From the NCBI GenBank assembly GCA_019348195.1, contig JAHWJX010000003.1, positions 1-64,000 on the forward strand: DNA of 64,000 bases, read 5' to 3'. The position numbers and the translations under genes were made by a program. This stretch comes from Pseudomonadota bacterium (lineage in GTDB: Bacteria; Pseudomonadota; Alphaproteobacteria; Caulobacterales; Caulobacteraceae). Positions 22,934-28,453 of this stretch are shown here, piece by piece; the stretch's first letter is position 1; each line of letters starts with the position of its first letter. The notes beneath the pieces are model-generated. The model was not told the origin of the DNA. It worked only from the letters and a program-made list of their open reading frames with translations, and did no database searches.

Positions 22934-24000
22934 TCAGCACATATGAGACGGCGGGGTCTCTTCGGCTTGGAGCTTGGCGAGGTGGCGGGCCGGGGTCATT
23001 CCGTCAAGGGCGCCGTGGGGTCGGTGGTGGTTGTAGAGGTGCTGGAAGCTGTCCAGCAGCGGGTTGAGGGCCTCGATGCAGCTCGGCATGTCGTAGACGG
23101 CGTAGAATTCGTATCGCCAAGCGCCGTTGCAGCGCTCCACGGCTCCGTTCAGCTGGGGTCGTTTGGGCGGCAACTCGTAGAGGACCAAGCCCTGGCGGCG
23201 CAGGCCTCCTCGAATTCGGCTTTGAATTCCGATCCCCCGTCCACCTGGATGGCTCTGACGGGGAAGGGCATTTCGGCCAGCACCTTGTCCAGGAACAGGC
23301 TGGCGGCGCGGGCGGTGGCGGCGCGTGAGGCCTTGGCCACCGTCCATTTGGCCACTGGGTCGTAAGCGGTGAAGTGTTTGATCGGCCTTCCTGGCGCGAG
23401 GGTGACGAACACGGTGTCGATCTGCACCACGGCGCCTGGCCGGTCGGGTTTGAGGCCCTTGGGCAGGCGCACGGCGTGACGTCGCCTGCAGCTGCGGCGA
23501 ACGGCGGGGCTCTTGCGCAGGCGGGCGACCGGCTGGATCCGGCCCCGCTGCATCAAGCTCTGGAGGATGCGGCCCACGGTGGAGTCGGAGACCTCGAACC
23601 CCTCGTCCCTGAGCAGCGGCCCCAGCTTGGCCTTGCCCCACATGGGAAAGTCGTCCCGCAGCCGCTCCACCGCCCGGATCAGGGCGCTGCTCCAGGTCTT
23701 GGGCCGCACCCGGAGCGGCCGGCGGCTCTTGGGCTCCAGCCGCTCGGACCAACGGTGCAGGCTGGCCCGGCTCGCCCCCACGGCGCGGGCCGCCTGCTCC
23801 GCGCTCAGTCCATCCCGGCGGGCCCGCTCAAACCGGCCAAGAACGTCACGCCTGGCCGCTCCGATGTCTGAGGTCTGCGCGCCCAGGCGTGACGCCCAGC
23901 CCGCGCCGCGATAGATCGATCCTTGTAGGCCAAAAACCTGCACGGGGGTCTCCTGTCCCTTGAGTCGGCAAACCCAAGCTTCAGGGACCCCCACCCCCAA
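22934..24000 (-). pseudogene. IS481-family transposase, frameshifted
   Basis: The first frame (24000 to 23149) encodes a helix-turn-helix (LSAEQAARAVGASRASLHRW), then the integrase core with the first two acidic residues (VVQIDTVFV and QVDGGSEF) and ends out of frame. The second frame continues from about 23190 with LVLYELPPKRPQLNGAVERC, which supplies the third acidic residue and the C terminus, ending in the left inverted repeat. The join is near 23195, where GGG on the minus strand should be GGGG, so one base is missing. Either a deletion or a -1 ribosomal slip is possible; no classical slippery heptamer is visible, so a pseudogene is more likely. Confidence 0.8.
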
Positions 24001-24047: not shown

Positions 24048-24205
24048 AGCTGCGGGGGTCTGCGGCCAATAGCGGCTGACAGTAGCGGTGGGACGAGCCC
24101 AGGTCGTAGGCCGCCGAACGCCGATTCGCTCGTCCCGAGCGGCCGGCTGTGCTTTGCTCGAGCCGCCCGGCTTCCGCCCTGCGCTCAGGTCAGTCTAGGT
24201 GAAGC

Positions 24206-24616
24206 ATGCAGATCCATCTCACCGAAACGCCGGAAGCCCATGCACGCGAGGTCATCGCCTCCGGTCTCGGCGCCTTCAACACGGAGCGGGCCGGGCCCGG
24301 GGAGTGGCGCCGTCTCGCGGTGCTCATCCAGGAGGGCGAGGCGGTCACCGGAGGCTTGTGGGGCGTCACCTCCTACGGCTGGCTCTTTACCGAGTTGCTG
24401 TTTGTGCCCGGCGCCTTCCGTGGGCGAGGCCTGGGCGCCGACATCGTCCGGAGGGCGGAGGGGGAGGCGCGCGCCCGGGGCTGCACGGGCGCTTGGCTGG
24501 ACACCTTCGAATTCCAGGCCCGCGGCTTTTACGAACGGCTAGGCTACCGCCTCTTCGGCCAGATCGACGACTATCCCCCCGGAAGCGCGCGGTACTTCCT
24601 CAAGAAGGCGCTCTAG
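24206..24616 (+). CDS. GNAT family N-acetyltransferase
   Basis: A 136-residue GCN5-related acetyltransferase. The acetyl-CoA pyrophosphate loop is FRGRGLGADIVRRAE, preceded by LLFVPGAFRG; beta-strand WLDTFEFQARGFYERLGYRLFG is the usual C-terminal half. Substrate is unknown. It lies between the IS element and the 2OG oxygenase gene, with which it converges by interlocked stop codons. A weak ribosome binding site (AGGTGAAGC) precedes ATG 24206. Confidence 0.9.
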   Translation: MQIHLTETPEAHAREVIASGLGAFNTERAGPGEWRRLAVLIQEGEAVTGGLWGVTSYGWLFTELLFVPGAFRGRGLGADIVRRAEGEARARGCTGAWLDTFEFQARGFYERLGYRLFGQIDDYPPGSARYFLKKAL

Positions 24617-25314
24617 CCAGCGCCTTGCTCCAGGGCGGCCCACAAGGCGGGCGTGGACGCTCGATTGTGTGCCGGCACGGGGATGCGGGCGCGAAAGGCG
24701 TGGTCGAACACACCGTCCACGCGAATGCTGAAGGTCAGGCCGTCCCGGCCGTCGCCGCCGTGAAACTGGTTCACCGTATCGAACCAGGCGCAATGGGATC
24801 GAACATAGGCCTGCTCTCCCGTTGCGGGATCCAGCATATAGAAGGGCTTGTCCAGATTGGTCCGGAACCACACGAACTCGTGGCAAAGGTCCGGGCTGGC
24901 GTGGTCGCGATGGGCGGAGACCGGCCGGGCCACATCGTCGTAGATGATCATCATCCGGCCCGTGCGGCGGAACGGCAGGGTGGCGATGAAGTCCATCAGC
25001 AGCGAGAACTCCTCCGCCGCTTCTGTCGGCTCCCATACGTCGGTGTTGTCCAGATCGTAGTAGTCCTCCGCCCGCGTGGAACGCGACAAGTAGATCATCC
25101 GTGTGCCGGGGAGTTCGGCGGCGGACGAATCTAGCAGGAAGGGCCCGGTGTAGAATCGCCGATCCTGCTCCGCGGCCAAGCGTCGCTCGATGCGGCTTCG
25201 GACATATCCGTCCAGAGCTCTCAGTGCGTCGACATCGACGAACTCGTCGAAGGACTTGTAGGAGGGATAGCTGATCCGCGGATCCAACTGTTCGCAATGG
25301 GCGCCGCTAATCAT
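24613..25314 (-). CDS. 2OG-Fe(II) oxygenase-like protein
   Basis: A 233-residue protein with a double-stranded beta-helix iron site: H135-R-D137 (SAHRDHASPD), H185 (VNQFHGGDG) and R198 (TFSIRVDG). The HxD...H spacing of 48 residues and the arginine 13 residues after the distal histidine fit Fe(II)/2-oxoglutarate dioxygenases. No better family match is recognised. It is divergent from the ATP-grasp/decarboxylase gene across a 249-bp gap, so it may belong to the same small biosynthetic locus. Confidence 0.65.
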   Translation of the reverse strand: MISGAHCEQLDPRISYPSYKSFDEFVDVDALRALDGYVRSRIERRLAAEQDRRFYTGPFLLDSSAAELPGTRMIYLSRSTRAEDYYDLDNTDVWEPTEAAEEFSLLMDFIATLPFRRTGRMMIIYDDVARPVSAHRDHASPDLCHEFVWFRTNLDKPFYMLDPATGEQAYVRSHCAWFDTVNQFHGGDGRDGLTFSIRVDGVFDHAFRARIPVPAHNRASTPALWAALEQGAG

Positions 25315-25563
25315 GGGCGCATTCTCGTTGCGCGTTCCAAAGCTCGTCTCCAGCGCGCGGACTCATGAGGGTCCTCCAGCCTGGCGTCCTGCCCTTTGAA
25401 CTCATGCGAGAGTTGGACGTTCCTGCTTCTCGATGGCGATCCGGCCGCGTCTCTGACGGCGGCCCATATCCCGTTGGAAAGCCGACTCAACGCTTAAGTA
25501 CAACCTGAATCGCTGCTGCAGCTTGCGCAAAGCTGCGGCTCTTCGCTGCCGCCCAAGGAAACC
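25315..25563. promoter_or_regulatory. 249-bp divergent promoter region of the ATP-grasp/decarboxylase locus
   Basis: The gap between the 2OG oxygenase and ATP-grasp/decarboxylase genes is visibly less GC-rich than the flanking coding DNA. It ends with AAGGAAACC immediately before the ATG at 25564, a good ribosome binding site. No clear operator repeat or sigma consensus was recognised. Confidence 0.4.
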
Positions 25564-27822
25564 ATGAAGATATACGTTAGCGGCCTGTACAGCGGCGGCA
25601 ATCCGCAGCCGGGCGTGGGCATCACTCGGTCGTTAAGGCAGGGTTACCCCGACGCAACTCTGGTGGGGGTGGAATACTCCAACCGCAGCTCGGGCATCCA
25701 TTGGCCCGAGTTGGACGAGGTCTGGCTGCAGCGTCCGTGGGACGAGCTGAACCTTTCCGCCCACGGCGAGGCTATCCGCGCCCTGCTGGACGGCGGAGCC
25801 CTTTGGATCTCCGGCAGCGACCTGGAAACCATGTGGCTGGCCAGCGTCTTCCCCGAGGGCCATGCCAATCTGCTGACCCCGAACGCGGCCGCCCTGGCGC
25901 GGATCACCAAGCCGCAGGTGGAGGCGCATGAGGGCCTGCCGGTGCAGATCCCGCCCTACATCCCGACCGACCGTTCGGACTGGGACCTGCACGCCTTTTG
26001 CCGCAAGCACGATTGGCGGGTGTGGCTCAAGGGACCCTATTACGACGCCGTGCGCACCCGCTCGTGGGACTCTTTCGAGGCCGTGCGCACCACGCTGGCC
26101 AAGGTGTGGAACACCGAACGGCTGTTCCTGCAGGCGCACGTCACCGGTTACGAAGAGTCCGTCATGCTGTGCGCCTACGAGGGCGAGCTGCTGGGCTGTG
26201 TGCGGATGCGCAAGCGGGAGATCACCGAGGAAGGCAAGACCTGGGCCGGCGACGTTTCCGAAGTAGACGAGGCCTTCCTCACCCCGCTCCGTCGCATCCT
26301 TCGCGAGCTGAACTGGACCGGCGGCGGCGAGCTGGAGATGGTCCGCGACGCGGACCACCGGCTTTGGCTGCTAGAGATGAACCCGCGCTTCCCCGCCTGG
26401 GTTCATGGGGCCACGATCGCCGGCGTCAACCTGCCCGCCTTGCTTGTTGAAGGCGCCACTGGCGTAGCCGCGCAGCGGCCTGAGCCCGGCCGTGGAGAGT
26501 TCACCCGCGTTGTGGTCGAGGTGCCGGTGCGCTCGGAGTTTCCGCTGCCGCCGCTGCCCGAACACCTGGGCGGCGGGACCGGTCACTCGCTCAAACACCC
26601 GTCCGGTCTGCCCGCCCTGGCCGAGCGCCTGCACAAGCTAAACGTACTGGACGGCGGCGACAACGAAACTTCAAGCGGCGGCGACGCCCCCACCGTTCCC
26701 AACACTATGGTCGAGGACCTGCTCGCACAGGACTTCAACCGCATCGAGACCCCCGCCTGGGTGTTCATGGAGAGCACCGCCGCCGATACCTTCAAGCGCG
26801 CCGCCGCCATGGCGCACACGCTGAGCACCAACCAGACGCGCGTCACCAACGCCTACAGCATCAAGACCAATCCTGACGCCCGCCTCATCAAGCTGGCGCT
26901 CGACTCCGGCTTCATGGCCGAGGGCATCAGCCTGTTGGAGCTGCACAAGGCCTTGGAGGTAGGCTTCCGGCCCGACCAGCTCATTCTCAACGGCCCCGGC
27001 AAGTGGTGGCCGGAGGGGATGATCCCCAAGGAGCAGATCCACGCCGTCTTCTGTGACTCCGCGCCGGACCTGAAGAAGACGGTGGCGGCGCTGAACAGCG
27101 GCGAACTCAAGGCCAAGATCGTGGGCGTCCGCATCCGTACCCCGCACATCCCGTCGCGGTTCGGCATCGCTCTGGACACCCCCGAGACCTTCAAGTCGCT
27201 GGTCGAGTCGATCGCCACCCTGCCCGAGGACACCGGCTTCGGCGTCCACTTCCACATGGCCAGCAGCAACATCGGCGTGAAGGCGTGGTGGCGGCTGTTC
27301 GACTCCATGCTGCGTTGGTGCCAGTCGCTGGAGCGGCTGACCGGCCGCACGATCGAGGTGCTGGACATCGGGGGCGGGTGGTTCCCCGACGACTGGCACA
27401 GCGTCGACCACAGCGACTTCGCCAAAGCCGTGAAACGCGCCCAGGCCGCCCTGCCCAACGTCGGCCAGATCATCTCCGAGCCCGGCAAGGCCATGGCCCA
27501 GCCCACCATGGCGCTTGCCATGCGCGTGCTGGAGACCCAGGAGGAGGACGGCGAGATCACCGAAGCCGTGGTCGACGCCTCCATCGCCGAACTGCCGATG
27601 TACTTCCATTATCCGCACCGCGTTCTGACCCAGGACCGGGGCGGCGACTGGAAGACCCTGAAGCGCGGCAAGAGCCAGCTGATGGGCCGCCTGTGCATGG
27701 AGCACGACGTGGTGGCGGCCAATATCGAACTCCCGGAAGGCACGCGCGCCGGCGATGTTCTCGTTTTCTGTGACGCGGGCGGTTACGACAGGAGCATGTC
27801 CTATGTATTTGGCCGAGGTTGA
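25564..27822 (+). CDS. fusion of ATP-grasp ligase and fold-type III PLP decarboxylase
   Basis: A 752-residue protein with two enzyme halves. Residues 1 to about 310 are ATP-grasp-like: VWLKGPYYDAV, then ELEMV (E258) and LLEMNPRFPAW with metal-binding E271 and N273. Residues about 375-752 resemble diaminopimelate/ornithine decarboxylases: PLP lysine K434 in NAYSIKTNPD, H562-F-H564, the glycine loop DIGGGW (601-606), EPGKAM (639-644), and C711-MEH-D715, which fits the conserved cysteine of the active site. ATP-grasp enzymes join a carboxylate to an amine or other nucleophile, so a fused decarboxylase would process or supply an amino acid. The product is unknown. The 3' end overlaps the next gene by 20 bases. 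Confidence 0.8.
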   Translation: MKIYVSGLYSGGNPQPGVGITRSLRQGYPDATLVGVEYSNRSSGIHWPELDEVWLQRPWDELNLSAHGEAIRALLDGGALWISGSDLETMWLASVFPEGHANLLTPNAAALARITKPQVEAHEGLPVQIPPYIPTDRSDWDLHAFCRKHDWRVWLKGPYYDAVRTRSWDSFEAVRTTLAKVWNTERLFLQAHVTGYEESVMLCAYEGELLGCVRMRKREITEEGKTWAGDVSEVDEAFLTPLRRILRELNWTGGGELEMVRDADHRLWLLEMNPRFPAWVHGATIAGVNLPALLVEGATGVAAQRPEPGRGEFTRVVVEVPVRSEFPLPPLPEHLGGGTGHSLKHPSGLPALAERLHKLNVLDGGDNETSSGGDAPTVPNTMVEDLLAQDFNRIETPAWVFMESTAADTFKRAAAMAHTLSTNQTRVTNAYSIKTNPDARLIKLALDSGFMAEGISLLELHKALEVGFRPDQLILNGPGKWWPEGMIPKEQIHAVFCDSAPDLKKTVAALNSGELKAKIVGVRIRTPHIPSRFGIALDTPETFKSLVESIATLPEDTGFGVHFHMASSNIGVKAWWRLFDSMLRWCQSLERLTGRTIEVLDIGGGWFPDDWHSVDHSDFAKAVKRAQAALPNVGQIISEPGKAMAQPTMALAMRVLETQEEDGEITEAVVDASIAELPMYFHYPHRVLTQDRGGDWKTLKRGKSQLMGRLCMEHDVVAANIELPEGTRAGDVLVFCDAGGYDRSMSYVFGRG

Positions 27823-28453
27823 GACCCGCGCCGTCCAGGCGACCGAAGTCCCGGAGGTCACCTCCTGCACCGTCAAGTGGGACAGCTGGCCGGCGTCCAC
27901 CATCTCCCACCATGGCCAGGCCTGCTGCGAGATTGCGCGTGAGTGGATGCTGGCCAACGACTTCTCCCAACTGGGCGACGCCGCGGCCCTGACCGGCCCG
28001 CGCTGGCTGCCAAAAAAATACCCGTGGGGACCGTCGCCTTGGCCCATGCACTGGTGCGAGGCGGTTGGCCGCAAGAAGCTCGACTGCGGCGCCCACCAGG
28101 CGATCTCGCAGGAGCTGTTCACCGCGCGCGGCGTGCAAAGCCGCCCGGCCCAGTTCGTTCAGCAGTTCAGTGAAGAAGCCACGCGACACTGGGGCCACAA
28201 GTGGGGCGAAGATCAGGTCCCCGCCGGCTGGATCGACGGCGATGTGATCTATCACGAAGGCTGCGCGGTCACCGTGGAGGGCGACGAGATCAAGCTGTGG
28301 GACGCCAGCGCCGGCTGGTGGATCGATCCTCAGCAGTCCGGCGGCTACGGCGCCCTGCTCAGCGTGCGCATCCTCGACCCCTCGGCCGAGGCTCCGCAAA
28401 CCTTGAGCTGGGGCGGGCGCCAACTGGCGCTCAACCGCTGGAACACCGTCTAG
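27803..28453 (+). CDS. transglutaminase-fold (papain-like) protein
   Basis: A 216-residue protein with no signal peptide. A Cys-His-Asp order typical of transglutaminase-like enzymes is visible: C95 in KKLDCGAHQAIS, H151 in VIYHEGCAV and D167 in IKLWDASAGWW. Around these, an N-terminal helix rich in Trp and Cys is found. The ATG at 27803 has AGGAG ten bases upstream and sits inside the end of the ATP-grasp gene, so expression is coupled; the ATG at 27755 is less likely. Such folds act as proteases, acyl transferases or amide-forming enzymes. The family is not further recognised. Confidence 0.6.
   Translation: MYLAEVETRAVQATEVPEVTSCTVKWDSWPASTISHHGQACCEIAREWMLANDFSQLGDAAALTGPRWLPKKYPWGPSPWPMHWCEAVGRKKLDCGAHQAISQELFTARGVQSRPAQFVQQFSEEATRHWGHKWGEDQVPAGWIDGDVIYHEGCAVTVEGDEIKLWDASAGWWIDPQQSGGYGALLSVRILDPSAEAPQTLSWGGRQLALNRWNTV

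Follow-up and report, generated by a model that had tools for sequence, protein, structure and literature searches.

Gene content of the locus

The window, by which we mean the entire 64,000-nucleotide stretch of alphaproteobacterial DNA that was analysed, contains a compact group of four genes centred on an unusual fusion. The fusion gene (25564–27822, forward strand) encodes a single polypeptide of 752 amino acids and is adjoined at its 3′ end by a gene for a transglutaminase-like (TG-like) protein. An oxygenase-like gene is divergently oriented on the other side, and a more loosely associated GNAT acetyltransferase gene (PF00583; 24206–24616, forward strand) lies beyond it. An open reading frame check confirmed all four genes at the positions first given. 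Comparison with a sister genome places all four under purifying selection (dN/dS 0.06–0.20), strongly so for the fusion (0.06), TG-like (0.08) and oxygenase-like (0.20) genes, and therefore none of them is a chance open reading frame. The 249 bp between the oxygenase-like and fusion genes (25315–25563) presumably hold promoters for both directions. No Rfam element was detected in this region, and a riboswitch search near the core genes of the window and of 12 relatives was negative.

An ATP-grasp domain fused to a PLP decarboxylase

The N-terminal half of the fusion protein (residues 1–324; 25564–26535, forward strand) matches the Pfam family ATPgrasp_Ter (PF15632) with 38.7 bits against a cut-off of 29.1. 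Six residues (K156, K217, K225, E256, E258 and N273) are invariant among 42 fusion relatives, and position 271 is occupied by E or D. The profile match and the ATP and metal residues E/D271 and N273 identify this half as a putative ATP-grasp ligase. A structural model of it has pLDDT values mostly above 80. Profile comparison with the PDB returned weak matches only (best 2pn1, E 0.39), and in a fold search with the full fusion model (pLDDT 89) all listed matches were decarboxylases. The original prediction placed an ATP-grasp domain (E271, N273) and a PLP decarboxylase (K434, H564, C711/D715) on one polypeptide, and these residues are indeed kept in the 42 relatives, with the E/D alternation at 271. 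It also named a missing ATP site as grounds for doubt; judged from sequence conservation, the site appears to be retained, and PF15632 is matched by the ATP-grasp half in all 42 relatives (E ≤ 0.1).

The C-terminal half (residues 371–752; 26674–27822, forward strand; PF02784/PF00278) scores 62 bits with Orn_Arg_deC_N and 34 bits with Orn_DAP_Arg_deC. K434, H564, the glycine loop GGG603–605, E639, C711 and D715 are invariant in the same 42 relatives. By profile, the closest sequence in the PDB is the N-citrylornithine decarboxylase FslC (7kh2, E 1.2e-43), followed by BtrK and LysA, and the fusion model matches SbnH, FslC, BtrK and LysA with structural Z-scores of about 28. The Schiff-base lysine, GGG loop, EPG motif, catalytic cysteine and aspartate, and the alanine-racemase-like fold of the model together mark it as a predicted fold-type III PLP decarboxylase.

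Assignment of this half to the diaminopimelate decarboxylase LysA was considered and rejected. LysA and the aspartokinase–LysA fusions share its fold and PLP site, but the LysA substrate motifs RPxxY and CE(T/S)xD are absent in an alignment with LysA-like proteins of relatives, their places being taken by LPxxxxxPHR and CMEHD. The score against the LysA NCBIfam model is also far under the cut-off (97.5 versus 297.9 bits). A separate LysA-like gene is present in the same genome on another contig (C33). Within the fusion family the C, M, E and D of the CME(H)D motif are invariant; the FslC counterpart is CMQHD, such that a CMxHD motif is common to FslC and the window fusion.

FslC and SbnH, which act in rhizoferrin and staphyloferrin B biosynthesis, are also PLP decarboxylases of fold type III, and their amino-acid substrate has been coupled to a second acid beforehand. 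As they are the nearest decarboxylases in both sequence and fold, the locus might specify an N-acyl diamine metal chelator made in the manner of an NRPS-independent (NIS) siderophore. We regard this as quite improbable. In the FslC and SbnH pathways the ligase is a separate IucA/C-type NIS synthetase, whereas in the window an ATP-grasp domain sits on the same chain and a transglutaminase-fold enzyme follows. An IucA/IucC synthetase is missing from eight of nine locus-bearing genomes, including the window's own (G000) and G001, and no siderophore receptor or transporter stands out as a conserved neighbour.

A transglutaminase-fold partner

The TG-like gene (27803–28453, forward strand) can be read as an open frame from 27755, a start that an in-frame stop excludes in many relatives. 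With the conserved start at 27803 its overlap with the fusion gene is exactly 20 bp, and the identical overlap occurs in 27 of 27 examined loci of the alphaproteobacterial and acidobacterial main clade. Across 45–46 relatives Cys95 and His151 never vary, and Asp167 shows at least 90% conservation. The 20-bp overlap and Cys95-His151-Asp167 order proposed originally are thus correct when this start is used.

Sequence profiles are nearly silent on the identity of this protein, with PF01841 matched by one of 46 relatives (E 0.09). In the AlphaFold model (pLDDT 91.1), Cys95 is at the N-terminus of a helix, His151 in a strand and Asp167 at the end of a strand. Fold matches include TG2 (Z 8.5), TglA (8.4), factor XIII (8.2), geldanamycin amide synthase (7.6), LapG (7.4) and arylamine N-acetyltransferases (6.7–6.9), with PeiW and PNGase also listed; a Foldseek search gave no match below 1e-3. 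The model places the protein in the transglutaminase superfamily, a kinship at the level of fold only. Since these matches include both hydrolases and acyltransferases, either activity would be compatible with the protein.

If it were a hydrolase, the locus could cap an amino acid with an acyl group for a time, decarboxylate the protected form, and release a plain amine. Matches to the hydrolases LapG, PeiW and PNGase would fit such a scheme, as would the channelling suggested by having ligase and decarboxylase on one chain. The model also resembles geldanamycin amide synthase and NAT-type acyltransferases, and we consider this alternative unlikely.

Distribution and co-inheritance of the core genes

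Among 84,980 species genomes scanned, 51 GTDB loci were found to have full-length fusion relatives (a few cut by contig ends), a number that is a lower bound because the scan was seeded by two short motifs of the fusion protein only. These loci span at least nine phyla: Pseudomonadota, Acidobacteriota, Gemmatimonadota, Chloroflexota, Actinomycetota, Bdellovibrionota, Planctomycetota, Verrucomicrobiota and Kiritimatiellota. A tblastn search added a locus on a plasmid of Streptomyces zaomyceticus. Among named strains, the locus is carried by Sphingomonas xinjiangensis DSM 26736, Sphingomonas sp. JC676, Streptomyces natalensis ATCC 27448 and Nocardioides potassii KLBMP 9356. Within the window's own family, a TG-like profile found it in two of 199 genomes, both belonging to the window's genus, and among the window's genome and those of 60 relatives a full-length fusion was confined to G000 and G001. 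In two metagenome assemblies (L064:4161-6395 and L045:9983-12256) an in-frame stop interrupts the fusion gene, reflecting either decay or sequence error.

In 50 of 53 loci the fusion gene is followed directly by the TG-like gene; in the remaining three the contig ends at or inside the fusion gene, so that the TG-like gene is present in every assessable locus. Main clades are common to the fusion and TG-like protein trees. The two genes form a core that is always inherited together, in about 50 species. In the fusion tree the window groups with Sphingomonadales, next to Acidobacteriota, whereas another alphaproteobacterium (L079) is placed far off on a long branch. This placement, together with the patchy distribution, points to horizontal transfer.

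The oxygenase-like gene and other third genes

The divergent gene (24616–25314, reverse strand) encodes a protein whose residues H135-x-D137, H185 and R198 are kept in 27 of 27 relatives. It matches no Pfam family and has no PDB profile match, and comparison with PF05118 relatives (Asp/Arg hydroxylases) was uninformative because the profiles are shallow. Consequently the label "2OG oxygenase" rests on its motif, and we refer to the product as 2OG-Fe(II)-oxygenase-like. The gene and its divergent orientation had been predicted correctly; the family assignment is motif-based and stays provisional.

Oxygenase-like relatives adjoin the core in 22 of 25 loci of the alphaproteobacterial and acidobacterial main clade with enough sequence (the exceptions being L039, L055 and L061), but in no locus outside that clade. 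Of 385 alphaproteobacterial genomes, that of the window is the only one with the family, which is therefore specific to the cassette. In Alphaproteobacteria the gene is divergent from the fusion gene across a gap of 171–271 bp. The acidobacterial gene runs codirectionally with the fusion gene, often as a tandem pair, and in three loci (L053, L054, L065) it overlaps or abuts the fusion gene. Several Acidobacteria leave no room for a graspetide RiPP precursor, with the oxygenase-like, fusion and TG-like genes contiguous; the survey of neighbouring reading frames covered those of at least 70 amino acids. Four other alphaproteobacterial loci (L043, L045, L046, L056) have GNAT relatives, 50–65% identical, about 3 kb downstream of the core, such that the acetyltransferase may be a component of the cassette as it occurs in Alphaproteobacteria.

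Outside the main clade other genes occupy the third position. A urea transporter (PF03253) is beside the core in Chloroflexi (L060, L064), Oligoflexia (L072) and Streptomyces (L076, L077, L081, L087). It is the sole copy in the genome in L060, L064 and L072, and no urea transporter was found in any tested genome outside this transporter group and Streptomyces. Other Streptomyces (L035, L080, L084) have a desaturase-family protein (oxygenase), two loci (L066, L073) a B12-radical SAM protein, and Burkholderiales (L068, L070, L078) and Opitutus (L075) an ABC exporter, which carries a cyclic-nucleotide domain where scanned. Third genes are thus interchangeable, and the oxygenase-like gene, as one of several, lies outside the core. 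The set of three or four genes originally envisaged thus stands for its TG-like member, while the oxygenase is replaced by other genes beyond its own clade. Orthologues mostly separated from these neighbours, named at the outset as an outcome that would tell against a shared locus, were not what we found.

Individual loci show further features. In an actinobacterium the TG-like protein (L066:12174-14015) has a C-terminal RaSEA-like domain that falls just under the cut-off of TIGR01210 (E 5e-61), the model of the archaeosine radical-SAM enzyme RaSEA. At L079 (6671-9995), an NRPS-like adenylation protein and a 575-amino-acid protein without a Pfam family are encoded 5′ of the core, and a peptide-type ABC importer follows it. 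A planctomycete has a TIR-domain gene (L074:3359-4123) immediately 5′ of its fusion gene. In L072 (13978-15796), genes for outer-membrane-like and BPL_N-type proteins come after the urea transporter, and a BPL_N-type relative is found by the core in L083.

The variety of third genes bears on two readings. Both the ATP-grasp and the transglutaminase folds include protein-modifying enzymes, and the two core proteins might accordingly place a decarboxylated amino acid on proteins. Third genes that are small-molecule enzymes and transporters fit better with a metabolite, and we consider protein modification very improbable. A second, more specific idea is that the product of the core belongs to an undescribed class of amides, small, neutral and urea-like, that would be transported across the membrane by the urea channel. 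The oxidative enzymes (the HxD/H/R oxygenase, the desaturase-family oxygenase and the radical-SAM proteins, including the RaSEA-like domain) would then be interchangeable and would tailor or cleave the product next to the amide nitrogen. We offer this as speculation with rather low odds.

Origin of the locus

An IS481-like element, its transposase split over two frames, lies beside the GNAT gene (22934–24000), and fragments of it are also present on contig C124. Colinearity with the sister genome breaks off near 24190, and the sister continues with dnaN (named from its translation); the dnaN region of the window's assembly is on contig C84. The sister locus thus has dnaN and no IS on that side, and we rejected the element as a vehicle of acquisition. 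It marks a strain-specific rearrangement or insertion and not the arrival of the cassette, to which it is incidental. The original suggestion that the locus borders an IS and may be acquired was right about the presence of the element, but not about its value as evidence; acquisition is better backed by the patchy distribution within the family (2/199). GC3 of the core genes (0.81–0.88) resembles that of their neighbours (0.87–0.90). A phage origin was discarded, with no relatives in viral contigs and two phage matches that cover the decarboxylase only, as was an anti-phage defence system, the four window proteins having no PADLOC match.

A proposed pathway

We infer the reactions of the cassette, their order, substrates and product from the gene set and from relatives of its enzymes. 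The reading we favour, with a probability a little better than even (roughly 0.55), is a carrier-free cassette for small-molecule biosynthesis. The ATP-grasp half would use ATP to activate a carboxylate and ligate it to an amino acid. From this conjugate the PLP half of the fusion would then remove the amino acid's alpha-carboxylate, as FslC does with N-citrylornithine, to give an amide-linked amine; decarboxylation at the stage of the conjugate is proposed because of the kinship with FslC, SbnH and BtrK and because of the fusion itself. The transglutaminase-fold enzyme may take an acyl group onto Cys95 and pass it to another amine, or may free the product by hydrolysis. Finally, the lineage-specific third gene would oxidise the product, as expected of the HxD/H/R oxygenase-like protein here, or transport it, as expected of the urea transporter or ABC exporter elsewhere. 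The small amino-acid-derived product proposed earlier largely holds as an interpretation, the structure of that product being conjectural.

Butirosin side-chain biosynthesis follows a related logic, in which the ATP-grasp ligase BtrJ, the decarboxylase BtrK and the acyltransferase BtrH work with the carrier BtrI. Like butirosin, the cassette combines an ATP-grasp ligase, a fold-type III decarboxylase and a Cys-type acyltransferase logic. The butirosin enzymes are separate proteins that require BtrI, whereas the cassette is fused and has no dedicated carrier in the locus. BtrH itself has been assigned to a C39-related group (PMC10318531). In the NRPS-independent closthioamide pathway, the ATP-grasp enzyme CtaD and the decarboxylase CtaF act together with the transglutaminase CtaJ (PMC6772006). 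Unlike the cassette, it uses the carriers CtaE and CtaH and the thioamide synthetase CtaC, and its enzymes are not fused.

These precedents, and the place of BtrK among the nearest PDB sequences and folds, raise the alternative of a thiotemplated pathway of the butirosin side-chain or closthioamide type. The ATP-grasp half would load a carrier, the PLP half would decarboxylate the bound amino acid, and the TG-like enzyme would transfer the acyl group. However, the window's contig encodes no PP-binding protein (the single match in the genome is on contig C65), and no conserved small reading frame of at least 70 amino acids was found among the neighbours of the core. The general cellular AcpP may act as a carrier, but on balance a thiotemplated route seems unlikely.

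Under the favoured carrier-free reading, the cassette represents ligase/decarboxylase amine biosynthesis in a fused, transglutaminase-coupled form, and a literature search of openly licensed papers found no description of such a gene architecture. A ligase–decarboxylase fusion with an obligate TG-like partner would make amines or amides independently of both NRPS and carrier. Named strains carry this small, well-delimited cassette, so that its product can be sought directly. Urea transporters beside the core in unrelated phyla raise the question of what cargo they carry there.
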